NCBI RefSeq assembly: GCF_013307225.1
Contig: NZ_CP028942.1
Span: forward strand, 1,488,001 to 1,552,000
Reading direction: 5' to 3'
Origin: Polynucleobacter tropicus
GTDB taxonomy: Bacteria > Pseudomonadota > Gammaproteobacteria > Burkholderiales > Burkholderiaceae
Length of the DNA: 64,000 nucleotides
In this document: positions 14,765 through 36,815 of the stretch, one piece after another
Layout: each line of letters starts with the position of its first letter
How positions within the stretch are numbered: the first letter of the stretch is position 1
Program-made: the position numbers and the translations under genes
Notes under the pieces: model-generated
Told to the model about the DNA's origin: nothing
The model's database searches: none
What the model saw: only the letters and a program-made list of their open reading frames with translations

Positions 14765-14802
14765 TTCGGCGACAAGTTTTAATATCGGATTGAATGAGAA
14801 AT

Positions 14803-14828
14803 AAAAAGGCACCTTATGGTGCCTTTTT
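14803..14828. terminator. Bidirectional terminator between lysS and cysK
   Basis: AAAAAGGCACC and GGTGCCTTTTT form a perfect 11-base stem with a 4-base loop. A on one side and T on the other side make it able to end both the lysS transcript and the convergent cysK transcript. Confidence 0.92.
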
Positions 14829-14854
14829 ATTTGACTACGATGATCTAAGCTAAC

Positions 14855-16580: not shown

Positions 16581-17357
16581 ATGGCCGCATATAACACCGA
16601 AACCGTTTTAACCGTTCACCATTGGAACGACACCTTATTTAGCTTTACTACCACCCGCAACAAAGGCCTACGTTTTCGTAGCGGCCATTTTCTTATGATC
16701 GGTCTTGAAGTTGAAGGCAAACCATTAGTTCGTGCCTACAGCGTAGCAAGTCCTAACTACGAGGAGCACTTAGAATTTTTAAGCATCAAAGTTCAAGACG
16801 GTCCATTAACGTCTCGCCTACAAAAAATTCAGGTGGGCGACCCTATTCTTGTAAGTGAAAAGTCAGTTGGGACTTTGGTTCTGGATGATCTCAACCCAGG
16901 GAAACACCTCTATCTCTTTAGTACTGGCACCGGCCTTGCTCCATTTATGAGCATCATTCGCGACCCAGAGACTTACGAGAAATTTGAGAAAGTAGTTTTA
17001 ATTCATGGCGTGCGTTTAGTGAGCGAGCTTGCTTATGCTGATTACATCAAAAATGAGTTAACCCAAGATGAATATCTTGGTGAACTGATTCGCGAGAAGC
17101 TTATCTACTACCCAACAGTCACTCGTGAAGCATTCAAACACACTGGACGTTTAACAACTGCGATTGAATCGGGTCAACTCTTTAAAGACATCGGCTTGCC
17201 ACCACTAGATCCAGCAGTTGATCGCGCGATGATCTGCGGCAGCCCATCTATGCTCAAAGAAACATCTGAAATGCTGGATGCAAAGGGCTTCAAGGTTTCT
17301 CCAAGCCTTGGTCAGATGGGTGACTACGTATTTGAGCGTGCTTTCGTAGAAAAATAA
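16581..17357 (+). CDS. fpr: Ferredoxin/flavodoxin--NADP reductase
   Basis: FAD enzyme exchanging electrons between NADPH and ferredoxin or flavodoxin. RAYSVASP is the FAD-binding motif (R-x-Y-S), STGTGLAPFMS the NADP pyrophosphate loop, and the short C-terminal end FVEK is of the bacterial subclass I type. 258 residues as usual. It precedes the sulfate-assimilation genes by 119 bases containing inverted repeats, so it is probably a separate transcript. Its physiological partner could be the ferredoxin of the isc operon or a redox step in sulfur assimilation; this is not shown by the sequence. Confidence 0.93.
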   Translation: MAAYNTETVLTVHHWNDTLFSFTTTRNKGLRFRSGHFLMIGLEVEGKPLVRAYSVASPNYEEHLEFLSIKVQDGPLTSRLQKIQVGDPILVSEKSVGTLVLDDLNPGKHLYLFSTGTGLAPFMSIIRDPETYEKFEKVVLIHGVRLVSELAYADYIKNELTQDEYLGELIREKLIYYPTVTREAFKHTGRLTTAIESGQLFKDIGLPPLDPAVDRAMICGSPSMLKETSEMLDAKGFKVSPSLGQMGDYVFERAFVEK

Positions 17358-17376: not shown

Positions 17377-17428
17377 TATATATCTAAAAGTAATATAAAT
17401 ATCGCTATATATTTCTTGTAGATATATA
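17377..17428 (+). promoter_or_regulatory. AT-rich inverted repeat before the sulfate operon
   Basis: TATATATCTA at 17377-17386 is repeated inverted as TAGATATATA at 17419-17428, spaced by 32 bases that are themselves A/T-rich. It lies about 50-100 bases upstream of the first gene of the sulfate operon, the place expected for a promoter and for a LysR-type regulator such as CysB. The regulator is inference; the dyad is seen. Confidence 0.5.
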
Positions 17429-17432
17429 GACC

Positions 17433-17469
17433 CCTTGGTAAATTCTCTTTAACGAGTTATTTACCAAGG
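17433..17469 (+). promoter_or_regulatory. Hairpin that masks the Shine-Dalgarno of the sulfate operon's first gene
   Basis: CCTTGGTAAAT (17433-17443) and ATTTACCAAGG (17459-17469) form a perfect 11-base stem with a 15-base loop. The right arm contains the AAGG of the ribosome binding site for the ATG at 17477. No T run follows, so it is not a terminator. In RNA it would hide the binding site, which suggests translational control; alternatively it is a DNA operator dyad. Confidence 0.65.
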
Positions 17470-17476
17470 AATTTCG

Positions 17477-17641
17477 ATGTCCCCCGTTCGCGAGCATTAC
17501 AACCCCGTCATTACCAAGCTACTTCGGGAACATGACCGCCTTCCGCATGAGAAGGTCGCAGAACGCAAGCAATTCCAGCGTCAAATTCTATTTCTCATGA
17601 ACACTATCAAGCTCGAAGAGTTTGAACAGTCTTTTGCTTGA
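17477..17641 (+). CDS. Small conserved-looking protein of the sulfate-assimilation operon (54 aa)
   Basis: A 54-codon gene, MSPVREHYNP at the start and ending LEEFEQSFA. It has AAGGA 6 bases upstream of the ATG and stops 13 bases before the TauE/SafE gene, which has its own AAGGAAT site, so spacing is operon-like. It is basic and predicted helical, with no signal peptide, membrane segment or cysteine. I do not recognise a family. Codon use resembles its neighbours. It may be a small regulator or partner of sulfate assimilation, inferred only from position. Confidence 0.7.
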   Translation: MSPVREHYNPVITKLLREHDRLPHEKVAERKQFQRQILFLMNTIKLEEFEQSFA

Positions 17642-17654
17642 TAAGGAATAAATC

Positions 17655-18449
17655 ATGATTCAATTTTTCTTCGACTCCACGCAGTTCATCATTTCCGGTG
17701 CACTTGTAGGCCTTTTGGTTGGCATGACTGGAGTTGGTGGCGGCTCTTTGATGACACCACTCCTAACGATTATTTTTGGCGTAGCGCCAACAACCGCCGT
17801 TGGAACCGATCTTGCATTTGCGGCAATTACTAAAGGGTTTGGCACTGCCGCACACAGACTGCATGGCAATGTTCGCTGGGATATTGTTCGCTTGTTATGC
17901 ATTGGCAGCTTAACGACCGCAGTGATTTCAATTTTGACGTTGAAGTTTGTTGGCCCAGTTTCAAAAAATTTCAATCACTTTATTAGCGTTTCTATTGGCA
18001 TCTCAGTATTACTAACAGCAGTTTCATTGTTATTTAGAGCAAAAATTCTCAAATGGGTTCAAGATAACCCAAGCTTCTTACCAAGCGGTGTGCGCTTAAA
18101 GGCAGCCACCATTATTGTTGGTGCGGTAATTGGCGTCTTAGTAACCGTCTCTTCGATCGGTGCTGGTGCGATAGGAGCAACTTTGATATTGGTACTTTAT
18201 CCACACCTCAAACCAGCAGAGGTAGCAGGTACTGATATTGCCTACGCCGTCCCCCTAACGGCTTTAGCCGGCATAGGTCACTGGTGGTTAGGCAATGTGC
18301 ACTTTGATTTGTTGTTTGGCCTCCTATTGGGATCGGTTCCTGCAATTTGGCTAGGTGCAAAACTTTCTAGCGCTCTATCAGAGCGCGCCACAAGAACCAC
18401 TCTAGCTGCAACCTTGTTTTTAGTTGGAATTAAATTAGTCTCTTCATGA
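17655..18449 (+). CDS. TauE/SafE family sulfur-anion permease
   Basis: Inner-membrane protein with about eight hydrophobic segments in two internally similar halves, each starting with a glycine-rich loop (GLLVGMTGVGGGSLMTPLL and the related SSIGAGAIGATL). The family exports sulfite or related sulfonates, or imports sulfate in some bacteria. Its overlap (ATGA) with cysH ties it to sulfate assimilation: either taking in sulfate or relieving sulfite build-up. 264 residues, SD AAGGAATAAATC. Direction of transport cannot be read from sequence. Confidence 0.9.
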   Translation: MIQFFFDSTQFIISGALVGLLVGMTGVGGGSLMTPLLTIIFGVAPTTAVGTDLAFAAITKGFGTAAHRLHGNVRWDIVRLLCIGSLTTAVISILTLKFVGPVSKNFNHFISVSIGISVLLTAVSLLFRAKILKWVQDNPSFLPSGVRLKAATIIVGAVIGVLVTVSSIGAGAIGATLILVLYPHLKPAEVAGTDIAYAVPLTALAGIGHWWLGNVHFDLLFGLLLGSVPAIWLGAKLSSALSERATRTTLAATLFLVGIKLVSS

Positions 18450-19174
18450 TTACTCCAGAATTTTGGTCTATTCCGGCTAGAACCTTAAGCCCAGCCGAGC
18501 TTGCACAAAAGTCCACTGTTTTAAAAGAACGTCTGGCTGAAATTGTTAAGCGCTTTTCAGACGTTCGCTTTGCTACGAGTCTTGCCGCTGAAGATATGGT
18601 GGTCACTGATGCCATTCAAAAAGCAAAAGCCAATATCAAGCTTTTTACTTTAGCCACAGGCCGTCTTCATCAAGAGACTGTCGATATGGTTAAGACAACC
18701 GAAGATCATTACGGGGTAACGATTGAAAAAGTCTACCCTCAAGAAAACGATGTTCAGGCTTTCATCGATCAATATGGCATGAATGGTTTTTACGATGGTG
18801 AAGAGCCCAAGAAAGCCTGCTGCGGCGCGCGCAAAATCAAACCTTTGAATGCCGCATTACAAGGTGCAGATGCTTGGATTACTGGTCAACGTCGCGAACA
18901 ATCAACTACCCGCACTGAACTGAATCTTGAAGAACTGGATGACGCAAGAGGTATTGCTAAATTTAACCCTCTGTTTGATTGGAGTGAAGCTGATATCTGG
19001 GCTTACATCAAACAAGAAAATGTTCCCATTCATCCACTACACCTAAAGGGCTATCCCAGCATTGGCTGCGAGCCTTGTACACGCCAAGTAAAGCAAGGCG
19101 AAGACATCCGCGCTGGACGCTGGTGGTGGCTTCAAAGCGATAGCAAAGAATGTGGACTACACGTCAACCAATAA
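18446..19174 (+). CDS. cysH: Adenylyl-sulfate (APS) reductase, assimilatory
   Basis: Reduces adenylyl-sulfate to sulfite using thioredoxin. The protein carries C125-C126, C208 and C211 (KACCGARK and GCEPCTRQ), the four ligands of the 4Fe-4S cluster found in APS-type enzymes and missing in PAPS-type CysH, plus the catalytic C236 in KECGLH near the C-terminus. So a CysC kinase is not needed, which agrees with the unfused CysN downstream. 242 residues. Starts inside the TauE stop (ATGA) and is followed by cysD after 45 bases. Confidence 0.95.
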   Translation: MITPEFWSIPARTLSPAELAQKSTVLKERLAEIVKRFSDVRFATSLAAEDMVVTDAIQKAKANIKLFTLATGRLHQETVDMVKTTEDHYGVTIEKVYPQENDVQAFIDQYGMNGFYDGEEPKKACCGARKIKPLNAALQGADAWITGQRREQSTTRTELNLEELDDARGIAKFNPLFDWSEADIWAYIKQENVPIHPLHLKGYPSIGCEPCTRQVKQGEDIRAGRWWWLQSDSKECGLHVNQ

Positions 19175-19219
19175 CGTATTCATTATTAAAACTTAGTAGA
19201 AACAAAAGCGATTTACAGA

Positions 19220-20143
19220 ATGTCAGAACAAAAAATACTTGATGATCACCTAGATTGGCTCGAAGCCGAGTCGATCTACATTATCCGTGAAGTGGTAGCA
19301 CAGTGCTCTAATCCCGCAATGCTGTTTTCGGGCGGAAAAGATTCGATTGTAATGTTCCACTTGGCCCGTAAGGCATTCCAATTTGGTGATCGCCCTGTGA
19401 AGTTACCGTTTCCGATTTTGCACATTGATACAGGACACAACTATCCTGAAGTAATTCAATACCGTGACGATGTTGTTAAGAACACTGGCGTCAAACTCAT
19501 TGTTGGTCACGTAGAAGACTCTATTAAAAAGGGTACTGTTCGCTTACGTAAAGAGACAGACTCTCGCAATGCCGCTCAGGCAGTCACCTTGCTAGAAACA
19601 ATCGCTGAATATGAATTTGATGCCCTAATGGGTGGAGCACGCCGCGATGAAGAAAAAGCAAGGGCTAAAGAGCGTATCTTCTCCTTCCGCGACGAATTTG
19701 GCCAGTGGGATCCCAAGGCACAACGCCCTGAGCTCTGGAAACTCTATAACGCCCGCATTGCCAAAGGCGAAAACATGCGCGTGTTCCCAATTTCAAACTG
19801 GACTGAGCTTGATGTTTGGCAATACATTGCCCGCGAAAATCTAGCGTTACCTAGCATCTATTACACACATCAACGCGAAGTAGTGAAGAAAAACAATCTT
19901 CTTGTGCCGGTTACCGACGTCACCCCTAAAGCGCCTGGTGATATCAGCGAGATTCTCAGCGTTCGTTTCCGCACCGTTGGCGATATCAGCTGCACCTGCC
20001 CCGTTCTGAGCACAGCCGCTAACCCACTAGACATCATTGCCGAAACCGCCATTACTGAAATTACAGAGCGTGGCGCAACTCGTATGGATGACCAAACAAA
20101 TGAGGCCTCAATGGAGCGCCGTAAGAAAGAGGGTTACTTCTGA
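19220..20143 (+). CDS. cysD: Sulfate adenylyltransferase subunit 2
   Basis: ATP-pyrophosphatase subunit that makes adenylyl-sulfate from ATP and sulfate together with CysN. The PP-loop LFSGGKDSIVM appears near residue 37; GGARRDEEKARAKER and the C-terminal ERRKKEGYF are CysD hallmarks. 307 residues is standard. The stop overlaps the cysN start by one base (TGATG), giving coupled synthesis of the heterodimer. Confidence 0.97.
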   Translation: MSEQKILDDHLDWLEAESIYIIREVVAQCSNPAMLFSGGKDSIVMFHLARKAFQFGDRPVKLPFPILHIDTGHNYPEVIQYRDDVVKNTGVKLIVGHVEDSIKKGTVRLRKETDSRNAAQAVTLLETIAEYEFDALMGGARRDEEKARAKERIFSFRDEFGQWDPKAQRPELWKLYNARIAKGENMRVFPISNWTELDVWQYIARENLALPSIYYTHQREVVKKNNLLVPVTDVTPKAPGDISEILSVRFRTVGDISCTCPVLSTAANPLDIIAETAITEITERGATRMDDQTNEASMERRKKEGYF

Positions 20144-21477
20144 TGACAACTAATCAACATCAAAATGTGGTTCGCTTTATTACTGCAGGTAGCGTAGATG
20201 ACGGCAAGAGCACCTTAATTGGTCGCTTGCTTTATGACACCAAATCTATTCTGGTTGACCAACTTGAGTCCCTCTCTAAAACAAAGCATGCCCGTGTAAC
20301 GTCCTCAGACGCTGGGGTAGATTTAGCTCTTCTCACCGATGGTCTAGAGGCTGAGCGCGAACAAGGGATCACGATTGACGTTGCTTATCGCTACTTCGCA
20401 ACCCCTAAACGTAAATTTATTGTGGCTGATGCGCCTGGTCATGAGCAATACACCCGCAACTTAGTTACTGGAGCATCTCAATCTGATGTTGCTATCATTC
20501 TGGTTGATGCTACTCGTGTAGACCTCAATACAAACCCTGCAACTTTACTAGCCCAGACAAAACGTCACGCGGCTATTGTTCATTTGCTAGGCTTGCGCCA
20601 TGTGGTGTTTGCCGTCAACAAGATGGACTTGTTTGAATTCGATGAAAAAGTGTTCAACACCATTAAAGTTGCGATTGATGATCTTGCAGAAAAAATTGGT
20701 CTATCTAAGCCAACATTAATTCCGATCTCAGCCTTACTGGGCGCCAATGTCGTTACCCCAAGCAAGAATACCCCTTGGTACCAAGGCCCTACCCTCTTGG
20801 AGTGGTTAGAGAGCTTAGATACCAGTCCAGAATCTGAGAAGCTCGCTTTACGCTTCCCAGTTCAATACGTTGCACGTCAAGATGGTAGCGCTTCTGATGA
20901 TTTCCGCGGTTACCTCGGTGAGATTGAGTCAGGCAGTATTCGTAAGGGTCAAAAAATTACTGTTCTCCCAAGCGGCTCAGAAGCTACTGTTGCAGAAATT
21001 TATTTAGGCAATGGTTCGGATAGCAAGGGTAGTAATGCCGTAGATTCGGCTCAAACTGGCGAAGCAGTTGCTATTCAATTAGCCGAAGACATCGATGTAT
21101 CACGTGGCTCGTTATTTATCAGCGCTGAAGACCGCAATCCTCCAGTATTAAGCAAGCAACTCTCAGCAGATCTTTGCTGGCTTGATACCGAGCCTTTATC
21201 CCTGAGTCGTAAGTATGCTTTACGTCATACCACCAATACTGTTGGCGCAAAAGTAAAGAATATTCAGCAAGTATTGGATGTTCAAACCTTATCGCATGCG
21301 AGTGATGTTCACGCCTTATCCACTAACGAAATTGGAAGAGTGGATTTCATTTTGCAAAAACCGATTGTTGCCGACTTGTATGATCAATCTCAGCGCACTG
21401 GGGCTTTTGTTTTAATCGATGAAGCCACCAATCACACGGTTGCGGCTGGCATGATTCGAGAGGCAGTCGCCCAATAA
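20143..21477 (+). CDS. cysN: Sulfate adenylyltransferase subunit 1 (GTPase)
   Basis: Regulatory GTPase of sulfate adenylyltransferase, related to EF-Tu. G1 GSVDDGKSTLIGRLLYD, G3 DAPGHEQYTRN and G4 NKMD are present, followed by two beta-barrel domains. 444 residues, without the C-terminal CysC kinase seen in CysNC fusions, which fits the APS-type CysH. A terminator follows 20 bases later, so this is the last gene of the operon. Confidence 0.97.
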   Translation: MTTNQHQNVVRFITAGSVDDGKSTLIGRLLYDTKSILVDQLESLSKTKHARVTSSDAGVDLALLTDGLEAEREQGITIDVAYRYFATPKRKFIVADAPGHEQYTRNLVTGASQSDVAIILVDATRVDLNTNPATLLAQTKRHAAIVHLLGLRHVVFAVNKMDLFEFDEKVFNTIKVAIDDLAEKIGLSKPTLIPISALLGANVVTPSKNTPWYQGPTLLEWLESLDTSPESEKLALRFPVQYVARQDGSASDDFRGYLGEIESGSIRKGQKITVLPSGSEATVAEIYLGNGSDSKGSNAVDSAQTGEAVAIQLAEDIDVSRGSLFISAEDRNPPVLSKQLSADLCWLDTEPLSLSRKYALRHTTNTVGAKVKNIQQVLDVQTLSHASDVHALSTNEIGRVDFILQKPIVADLYDQSQRTGAFVLIDEATNHTVAAGMIREAVAQ

Positions 21478-21497: not shown

Positions 21498-21524
21498 AAA
21501 AGCCTCGCAATGCGAGGCTTTTTT
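21498..21524 (+). terminator. Terminator of the sulfate-assimilation operon
   Basis: AAAAGCCTCGCA and TGCGAGGCTTTT make a perfect 12-base stem with a single-base centre (in practice a 3-5 base loop), followed by further T residues. It begins 20 bases after the cysN stop. Confidence 0.93.
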
Positions 21525-23412: not shown

Positions 23413-24065
23413 GCCAGTTGCTGCCTGGGTTCATACAAAAACTCTATCGCTCTGTTTGGCGCGAATGGCTCATCTTTCATCTTGGTGATGAGCGCTATAA
23501 GTTCATGTTTGATAAACCACCCGCTAATGAGTGGGTAGTTATTGACTGCGAAACAACCGGTTTGAATATCGCTAAAGATCAAGTCATTTCGATTGGCGCC
23601 GTCAAGATTGTTGGCAATAAAATCATGACCAGCGAACGTCTTGAAATCTTGGTTAAACCCGACAAGGAAGTATCCGCCGAAAGCGTCAAGATTCATCGAC
23701 TGCGCGAACTTGATGTCGCAAATGGTCTAGATCCAGAAATCGCCGTTGCCAAACTTATGCAATTTATTGGTAGCCGCCCTATCGTTGGGTATTACTTAGA
23801 GTTCGACTTGGGAATGCTTCATAAAGTGATCTGGCCAATGTTAGGGCAAGGCCTCCCCCAAGAAAAGATTGAAGTTTCCGAAATGTACTATGAGTACAAA
23901 AATTCCAAGTTGCCACCAAATCAACGCGGACAGATGATTGATTTGCGTTTTGACACTCTGATGAAAGATCTTGGCCTGCCTACACGCGATGCGCATGATG
24001 CGATGAATGATGCCGTTATGACGGGAATGGCATTTATCAAATTACGAGAACTACTCAGGAAATAA
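23409..24065 (+). CDS. DnaQ-like 3'-5' exonuclease
   Basis: DEDDh exonuclease similar to the epsilon subunit of DNA polymerase III. ExoI is VIDCETTGLN (D46, E48), ExoII includes YYLEFDLGML, and ExoIII DAHDAMNDAVM holds the catalytic His and Asp. 218 residues with about 35 residues of N-terminal helix ahead of the fold. It starts inside the stop of the DUF294 gene (ATGA). Because it travels with DUF294 and ActP it is probably not the replicative proofreader but a specialised nuclease (role inferred). Confidence 0.9.
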   Translation: MSQLLPGFIQKLYRSVWREWLIFHLGDERYKFMFDKPPANEWVVIDCETTGLNIAKDQVISIGAVKIVGNKIMTSERLEILVKPDKEVSAESVKIHRLRELDVANGLDPEIAVAKLMQFIGSRPIVGYYLEFDLGMLHKVIWPMLGQGLPQEKIEVSEMYYEYKNSKLPPNQRGQMIDLRFDTLMKDLGLPTRDAHDAMNDAVMTGMAFIKLRELLRK

Positions 24066-24091
24066 AAAACCAGGATTGCTCCTGGTTTTTT
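24065..24091. terminator. Bidirectional terminator between exonuclease gene and actP
   Basis: AAAAACCAGGA and TCCTGGTTTTT form an 11-base stem with a 4-base loop, A-flanked on one side and T-flanked on the other, exactly between two convergent genes. Confidence 0.92.
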
Positions 24092-24114
24092 ATTTGTTTC
24101 AACTTCGCTCTAGC

Positions 24115-35515: not shown

Positions 35516-36784
35516 ATGCTTTATCAGTTACACGAGTTCCAAAAAGCCTTACTTCAACCAATGAGTTCATGGGCACGCGCTGCCTCTGAAGCATTGATTA
35601 ACGCAGCCAACCCTGCGTCTAAAGTTCCAGGCTCTGAGCGTTTGGCTGCCAGCTACGAACTTCTCTATCGCCTAGGTAAGAACTACAAAAAACCAGAATT
35701 CGGCATTCGTTCCGTGATTGCACATGGACATGAAGTTGCTATTCATGAAATGGTTAAGGTTGCAAAACCATTTTGCAACCTGATTCGTTTTAAGCGTTTC
35801 TCAGATGATGTAGAAACCATCAAGAAATTAAAGGATGATCCATCTGTTTTAATCGTGGCGCCACTCTCTGGTCACCATGCAACTTTGCTACGCGATACCG
35901 TTCGCACACTCTTGCAAGATCATAAGGTTTACATCACTGATTGGGTTGATGCTCGGAATGTTCCCGTAAGCGAAGGTGAGTTTGGTTTAGATGACTACGT
36001 TCACTATGTTCAAGAATTTATTCGCTACATCGGCGCAGAAGATTTGCACGTCATCTCTGTTTGCCAGCCTACCGTACCTACATTAGGCGCCATTTCATTA
36101 ATGGCTTCAGTCGGAGAGAAGACGCCCGCTTCGATGATCATGATGGGCGGTCCTATTGATGCACGTAAATCACCAACCGCTGTAAATAACTTGGCAGAAC
36201 AAAAGTCTCATGACTGGTTTGAAAGTCATGTAATTTACAAGGTTCCACCAACCTATACAGGCGCTGGTCGTCGTGTTTACCCAGGGTTCCTCCAACACAC
36301 TGGCTTTATCGCCATGAACCCTCAAAACCATTTGCAATCACACTGGGATTACTTCACCAATCTCGTGCGTGGAGATGAAGAGGACGCTGAAGCGCATATT
36401 CGCTTCTATGATGAATACAACGCGGTTTTAGATTTAGATGCAAAGTTCTACCTCGATACGATTAAAACTGTGTTCCAAGACTATGCGTTGCCAAACGGCA
36501 CCTGGGAAGTTGCAGGCAAACTCGTAAAACCAGAAGACATTAAAAAGACTGCCTTACTCACAGTAGAAGGCGAGCTTGACGATATTTCTGGAAGTGGTCA
36601 AACACGATCAGCCCATGGTTTATGTGCTGGCATTCCTAAAGAGGCGAAAGCGCATTATGAAGTCGCAGGCGCTGGTCACTACGGAATCTTCGCAGGTCGT
36701 CGCTGGCGCGAAAAGGTTTATCCAAAAATTAAATCCTTTATCCGAGAGCATCAACCTAAAAAACGCAAATCTGGCGCTAATTAA
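35516..36784 (+). CDS. phaZ: Intracellular polyhydroxyalkanoate depolymerase
   Basis: Hydrolyses intracellular poly-3-hydroxybutyrate granules. The protein (422 residues) matches the Ralstonia/Cupriavidus PhaZ type, where the nucleophile is a cysteine: C183 in ISVCQPTVP sits at the position known for that enzyme. The alpha/beta-hydrolase fold and a late GAGHYGIFAGRRWRE (catalytic His) are visible. Strong SD AGGAGG. Indicates carbon storage as PHB, though synthase and phasin genes are not in the window. Confidence 0.93.
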   Translation: MLYQLHEFQKALLQPMSSWARAASEALINAANPASKVPGSERLAASYELLYRLGKNYKKPEFGIRSVIAHGHEVAIHEMVKVAKPFCNLIRFKRFSDDVETIKKLKDDPSVLIVAPLSGHHATLLRDTVRTLLQDHKVYITDWVDARNVPVSEGEFGLDDYVHYVQEFIRYIGAEDLHVISVCQPTVPTLGAISLMASVGEKTPASMIMMGGPIDARKSPTAVNNLAEQKSHDWFESHVIYKVPPTYTGAGRRVYPGFLQHTGFIAMNPQNHLQSHWDYFTNLVRGDEEDAEAHIRFYDEYNAVLDLDAKFYLDTIKTVFQDYALPNGTWEVAGKLVKPEDIKKTALLTVEGELDDISGSGQTRSAHGLCAGIPKEAKAHYEVAGAGHYGIFAGRRWREKVYPKIKSFIREHQPKKRKSGAN

Positions 36785-36787
36785 TAC

Positions 36788-36815
36788 AAATGAGAGACCT
36801 TAGCGTCTCTCATTT
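36788..36815 (+). terminator. Hairpin after phaZ, probable terminator
   Basis: AAATGAGAGAC and GTCTCTCATTT form a perfect 11-base stem with a 6-base loop, starting 3 bases after the phaZ stop. Only a short T run follows (within the stem end), so it may be a weak terminator or an RNA 3'-end stabiliser before rnfB. Confidence 0.6.

Follow-up and report, generated by a model that had tools for sequence, protein, structure and literature searches.

In tightly packed genomes transcription leaks between genes, and in the insertion elements IS10 and IS50 transcripts entering from outside form a fold that covers the transposase start and stay untranslated, while those begun at the elements' own promoters are translated. 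Long transcript isoforms that are not decoded are known from yeast, and classical CysB sites lie upstream of the -35 element. The closest described system is gene e (lysozyme) of phage T4, in which late promoters lie in the region encoding the 5' strand of the hairpin and long transcripts give a 100-fold lower lysozyme synthesis; soc and 49 are further T4 genes with a sequestered ribosome site (PMC3014915). The long early transcripts of gene e, and also those of I-TevI, fold in such a way that the ribosome site is hidden, as is predicted for the leader described here.

This leader precedes a 54-codon gene located behind a gene for a ferredoxin-NADP reductase (fpr) and carries a hairpin over the ribosome binding site. 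It is considered fairly probable that the hairpin is a translational insulator, which silences the read-through mRNA of fpr and lets a CysB-type promoter retain control. RNA polymerase continuing past the co-directional fpr would produce an mRNA containing both arms of the hairpin; this long mRNA would fold, its AAGG would be hidden and the small protein would not be translated. When the CysB-type promoter is active, presumably under sulfur limitation, mRNA would begin at about position 17451, between the arms, and this shorter mRNA, devoid of the left arm, would expose a free ribosome site in a leader of 26 bases. One sequence would have two roles: -10 box in the DNA and blocking strand in the read-through RNA. 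If true, this would be a cheap way to silence a conditional gene behind a same-strand neighbour, with the blocking strand placed in the promoter; such a device is known for phage lysis genes and is here predicted over 94 bacterial loci, a few of them with different stems. This suggests that the device may be common, and that it may be searched for as ribosome sites pairing with their own -10 region.

Membership in the T4 gene e type may be regarded as partly established, since by prediction and comparison the ribosome site of the long transcript lies within a stable stem, in its 3' strand. The likeness is one of mechanism and is predicted; a common origin is not expected. The T4 cases are phage genes with late promoters and a role in timing, whereas the present one is bacterial and chromosomal, with a LysR-type dyad at its promoter and presumed read-through from fpr. 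Likewise, IS10 and IS50 are mobile elements facing random neighbours, whereas gene order is fixed here and the promoter is of a nutrient type. What is shared with CysB-regulated promoters is the presumed activator dyad upstream of the start, the sulfur genes nearby and the presence of CysB-family proteins in the genome; the hairpin, in contrast, lies downstream and outside the classical sites. A literature search at the level of titles and abstracts, with subscription papers largely outside it, returned no paper that deals with this leader or describes a device of this kind at a sulfur gene.

The window (the whole stretch of 64,000 nucleotides that was analysed) is part of a genome of 2.04 Mb assembled in a single contig. 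The genes around the hairpin are the following.

16581 to 17357, forward strand: fpr-like ferredoxin-NADP reductase gene (Pfam FAD_binding_6 and NAD_binding_1; NCBIfam ferredoxin--NADP(+) reductase below cut-off)
17477 to 17641, forward strand: 54-codon gene with a coding pattern of changes, no match in Pfam or NCBIfam, present in 105 of 186 genomes of the same genus
17655 to 18449, forward strand: gene of a TauE/SafE-type permease (tauE; Pfam PF01925), the next gene here
18446 to 21477, forward strand: cysH, cysD and cysN (Pfam, NCBIfam)

The fpr-like gene, the presumed source of read-through, lies on the same strand as the small gene and its stop is found 119 bases ahead of it. The 54-codon open reading frame is coding, as the changes over codons 2–50 on a tree of 94 loci show: they amount to 249, 118, and 1022 at codon positions 1, 2, and 3, respectively. 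The features of the leader, which include a conserved promoter core and the two arms of the hairpin, are listed below.

17377 to 17428, no strand: A/T-rich dyad with 21-nt arms, 90% complementary, spanning about -74 to -23 relative to the predicted start
17399 to 17403, forward strand: ATATC box of the conserved promoter core, which precedes the small gene with and without the hairpin
17416 to 17421, forward strand: -35 element TTGTAG with a conserved YTTG, the hexamer ending 17 bases before the -10 box
17433 to 17443, forward strand: left arm of the hairpin, expected only in transcripts begun upstream
17439 to 17444, forward strand: -10 element TAAATT, overlapping the left arm by its first five bases, with placement and spacing common to loci without the hairpin
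17451, forward strand: predicted transcription start (A), 7 bases past the -10 box, within a conserved TAAC in the loop
17459 to 17469, forward strand: right arm of the hairpin, holding the Shine-Dalgarno AAGG, with rarely changed inner positions that neither promoter nor ribosome site explains

The left arm (CCTTGGTAAAT) and the right arm (ATTTACCAAGG) are perfect complements of 11 bases separated by a 15-base loop, the AAGG (17466–17469) that serves the ATG at 17477 is inside the right arm, and no T run follows, all as a sequence-only reading of this DNA had described. The second A/T dyad, which that reading had placed just upstream, is present as well (arms 17377–17397 and 17408–17428, spacer of 10). 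The hairpin (37 nt) has a predicted folding energy of -16.4 kcal/mol. Perfect inverted repeats with arms of at least 11 and loops of 3–20 bases occur six times in the window versus 0.28 ± 0.52 times in 60 dinucleotide shuffles. The other five are located at 14799–14832, 21498–21522, 24060–24095, 35757–35781, and 36788–36815, the first three of them at gene ends by their coordinates and with a terminator-like look. Identity of the hairpin as an intrinsic terminator was rejected in view of the absent T run, and a terminator scan of the stretch from fpr to the small gene found nothing terminator-like. A known Rfam element was discarded too: with Rfam 15 at the gathering threshold tRNA alone was recovered in the window and nothing at the hairpin, the matches below that score at the leader being far beneath the threshold.

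The promoter core common to the loci is ATATC-N11-YTTG-N20-TAMATT. It occurs in the window and in 14 of 18 long relative loci (tolerating one mismatch in the window and two in the other loci), only before the small gene; within two mismatches it was not found in L117, L124, L126, and L127. Most long loci that lack fpr upstream have no repeat, and 10 of 13 keep the core as ATATC-N11-YTTG-N20-TACATT (at most two mismatches), TACATT being the prevalent -10 box of loci without the hairpin. Since the shared core places the -10 box at 17439–17444, transcription should start at about 17451, inside the loop, and therefore the gene's own mRNA would be devoid of the left arm. The predicted own leader has 26 bases, and the same rule gives 23–31 bases in the 12 other loci for which a value is obtained. 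A scan with the sigma-70 consensus reported no promoter here, which would not be surprising if the promoter depends on an activator. The position of the dyad at 17377–17428 fits that of a site for a LysR-type (CysB-family) activator, which would presumably bind it and place the predicted promoter under sulfur control; the genome encodes two proteins that match a CysB-family regulator of a relative (76% and 53%). A search of this genome for the core with up to two mismatches gave 28 matches versus 11 in the control, the known site being the only exact one.

The comparison set comprised 109 loci, the start points of which were taken from the best tblastn match, and 108 after L003, a duplicate place of L001, was removed from all counts. 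In 94 of the 108 fpr is found directly upstream on the same strand; these 94 constitute the fpr alignment, and 91 distinct leaders the covariation alignment. Opening costs of the ribosome site were scored in 107 loci (L070, without a recognisable ribosome site, was left out) for the read-through transcript, with 125 bases upstream, and for the own transcript, which was taken to begin at TAAC or otherwise 27 bases before the ATG. Upstream bases were shuffled for opening costs and pairing probabilities with base content kept and dinucleotide content free.

In the 94 fpr loci the median opening cost is 7.6 kcal/mol for the read-through transcript, 1.0 for the own transcript and 2.1 after shuffling of the upstream bases. 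The cost exceeds that of all 20 shuffles in 70 of these loci, and the difference between read-through and own transcripts is at least 3 kcal/mol in 86; it is smaller in eight (L018, L044, L051, L059, L069, L077, L084, and L096) and nil, for instance, in L018 and L069. In 75 of the 94 loci the site is paired (probability above 0.5) with bases upstream of the predicted start, compared with 11 after shuffling. The small gene in the window has an opening cost of 8.16, or 0.97 from its own start, and 26 other genes of the window used as a control show a median of 3.25, with one at 7.4 and none at 8 or above. A recomputation from the -10 box in 18 loci yielded 13 values (L090, L101, and L108 have no -10 box; L070 and L093 have no candidate ribosome site). 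Six loci have an upstream gene in divergent orientation, so that read-through is not expected, and show differences of 2.3, 0.8, 1.7, 3.5, -1.0, and 0.3 versus a median of 5.8 in the co-directional loci (n = 101; Mann-Whitney p = 0.0002), a contrast that represents only a trend because the loci are not independent (shared ancestry) and just six are divergent. The divergent L094 and L093 still reach 4.5 and 6.0.

The leaders share a conserved layout that consists of TTGTGG, 17 bases, CTTGGTAAATT, a variable stretch with TAAC, and ATTTACCAAGGAA. The inner positions R5–R11 of the right arm, which are dispensable for both promoter and ribosome site, show 3 to 14 changes on the tree versus about 14 to 29 at free positions nearby. 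Over the 91 distinct leaders, paired cells amount to 84.2% (80.1 ± 0.5 in shuffles) and the covariation score to 0.158 (0.097 in shuffles; 0.025–0.085 in slid structures). Conservation of the pairing among relatives, on which the sequence-only reading had made its proposal depend, is borne out to the extent that the stem pairs covary moderately, with 61 double-changed cells versus 28 in shuffles; two other measures stay within the shuffled range, namely the pairs changed on both sides (7 versus 6.2, reached in 185 of 500) and the further pair types (23 versus 20.8, reached in 78 of 500). When the right arm was left to evolve independently on the tree (500 runs), the observed number of double-changed paired cells was reached once for all 11 pairs and never for pairs 5–11, and the observed paired percentage 3 and 13 times, respectively. 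The clearest case is the sixth pair, which passed from G-C through G-U to A-U, A having arisen, by parsimony reconstruction, solely opposite U. Much of the covariation signal is carried by one clade of 13 genomes with two pairs changed on both sides, and in the -10 box A has changed to C ten times, at the cost of a pair that was not repaired.

Covariation of single pairs is modest. A blind scan of column pairs ranked hairpin pairs 4th, 13th, and 17th of 743, the top three being non-hairpin pairs and the high ranks being mixed with pairs that stem from shared changes of one clade. RNAalifold with default scoring returned no consensus structure for the 91 leaders, and with RIBOSUM scoring it returned the 11-bp stem. 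For 43 distinct pairs of arms the mean energy is -8.19 kcal/mol with the own partner versus -6.25 with swapped partners, and none of 200 shuffles was as low (a comparison made without a tree control). Among 26 pairs in which both arms are variant, the own right arm is better than the consensus right arm in 18, tied in 2 and worse in 6; the own left arm exceeds the consensus left arm in just 10 (both tallies by eye).

The repeat could instead be the dyad of a dimeric repressor bound over the -10 box and the start, with the complementarity in RNA being incidental. An overlap with -10 and start is an ideal place for a repressor, the arms are 15 bases apart in most loci, and symmetric change of an operator would likewise yield covariation. 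However, arm distance varies by ±1 (25 in 49, 24 in 4, and 26 in 5 of the 58 leaders in which TTGG/CCAAG is retained), and the consensus stem extends past a one-base bulge with an inner covarying pair (CG in 39, UA in 22, UG in 10, and other in 20 of 91). In addition, unrelated stems cover the same ribosome site in other groups, i.e., (T)CCTCT/AGAGG(A) in place of the usual stem in the fpr loci L103, L104, and L106, and CCTAAA(T)/(A)TTTAGG in L086, L089, and L091, which lie behind tauE; these alternative stems have 5–7 bp and a left arm at or across the predicted start, part of which would remain in the own transcript. Nor does a regulon appear: the exact repeat pattern was matched in 45 of 186 genomes, once per genome and in 44 of them at the small gene, and a covariance model gave 95 matches at E ≤ 1e-5, spread over 94 genomes (two in G070) and without exception adjoining the small gene, with weak matches elsewhere only in G136, G146, G023, and G052 (E 0.0017–0.0076). 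As these leaders were themselves the source of the model and strict filters were applied (32 candidates scored per genome, so that weak sites may be missed), it is just the absence of other strong matches that is informative; the agreement of pattern and model matches with small-gene locations was compared by eye. The variable arm distance, the covarying pair past the bulge, the unrelated stems and the lack of a regulon favour an RNA element over a DNA dyad, and a repressor site is judged unlikely. The sequence-only reading had offered a pair of operators for a CysB-like regulator as its second option, and for the upstream dyad the position fits. For the hairpin, occurrence at more than one sulfur promoter, with constant spacing, would be expected, and a multi-site operator was rejected on account of the single strong copy per genome (two in G070) and the variable arm distance.

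An RNA switch or thermosensor acting in the gene's own mRNA, as that reading had proposed, would need a promoter ahead of the hairpin. In that case the ribosome site would lie within a hairpin of -16.4 kcal/mol, and a further -10 box could reside in the A/T-rich TATATA stretches upstream. Within the loop, in addition to TAAC, the bases A and G at 17455–17456 (22 and 21 bases ahead of the ATG) show 84–90% conservation, which neither the 11-bp stem nor the start explains and for which the inner stem extension may account in part. Against such a switch, the promoter core common to loci without the hairpin puts the start within the loop, five other loop positions are just 45–59% conserved, and no Rfam family reaches the gathering score. 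The cover over the ribosome site is real and conserved, but a switch in the own mRNA that responds to a ligand or to temperature is judged very unlikely because the start, predicted at 17451 from promoter conservation, lies downstream of the left arm (17443), a placement that the reading itself had named as incompatible with its proposal. The hairpin could also serve fpr by stabilising the 3' end of its mRNA or by acting there as a processing signal, the cover over the ribosome site being a side effect: stable 3' hairpins can block exonucleases, this one lies 76–112 bases past the fpr stop and the small gene follows fpr in 94 of 108 loci. Such a role appears highly improbable, since no T run or terminator is present, the right arm sits on the ribosome site, the stems behind tauE likewise cover the ribosome site, and L097 (the second copy of G070) keeps a 9-bp stem with no fpr within its 6-kb stretch. 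A further possibility, held to be quite unlikely, is that fpr read-through is itself regulatory, in that a stable, untranslatable long isoform, possibly together with a disturbed promoter, would allow redox-linked fpr activity to repress the sulfur gene; if true, bacteria would have an equivalent of the undecoded long isoforms of yeast, genus-wide and rebuilt with different stems. Translational insulation from fpr read-through is the reading retained in what follows.

The hairpin had been attributed to the leader gene of a sulfate operon, which holds for part of the genus. Downstream genes were counted for 81 distinct leaders from loci with longer flanks, 66 of them behind fpr: tauE and cysH follow in 38 of the 66 and are absent in 28, 27 of which have the next open reading frame of at least 100 aa on the opposite strand and one is cut by the contig. 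Because these 28 leaders have no tauE-cysH downstream, the hairpin device belongs to the small gene. Here, silencing of read-through may also lower the sulfate genes downstream, through the lost translation of the read-through mRNA. A terminator-like stem with a T-rich tail is found at 17607–17625, within the 3' end of the 54-codon gene and ahead of tauE (0.5 expected by chance).

Beyond the genus, the 54-aa protein was found in none of the other genera among 25 genera and 398 genomes of the family. The 45 named records with the small gene comprise 30 from Polynucleobacter and 15 metagenome-assembled genomes (MAGs) without a genus label; L191 (3001–3153), the sole one of the 45 labelled as another family, holds a weaker relative of the protein (61% identical) in a MAG labelled Comamonadaceae, which could reflect transfer or misassignment. 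Two copies of the gene occur in one genome in three cases (L127 in G070, L118 in G104, and L123 in G159); the second copies of G104 and G159 have internal stops, and that of G104 is without the left arm. In five loci (L114, L117, L119, L120, and L121) the small gene lies behind an fpr-tauE pair, divergent from an open reading frame of 87–97 codons and without the hairpin, and the promoter core is kept in all of these except L117. The gene is located near TauE, cysHDN or sulfate-transporter genes, or stands alone behind fpr.
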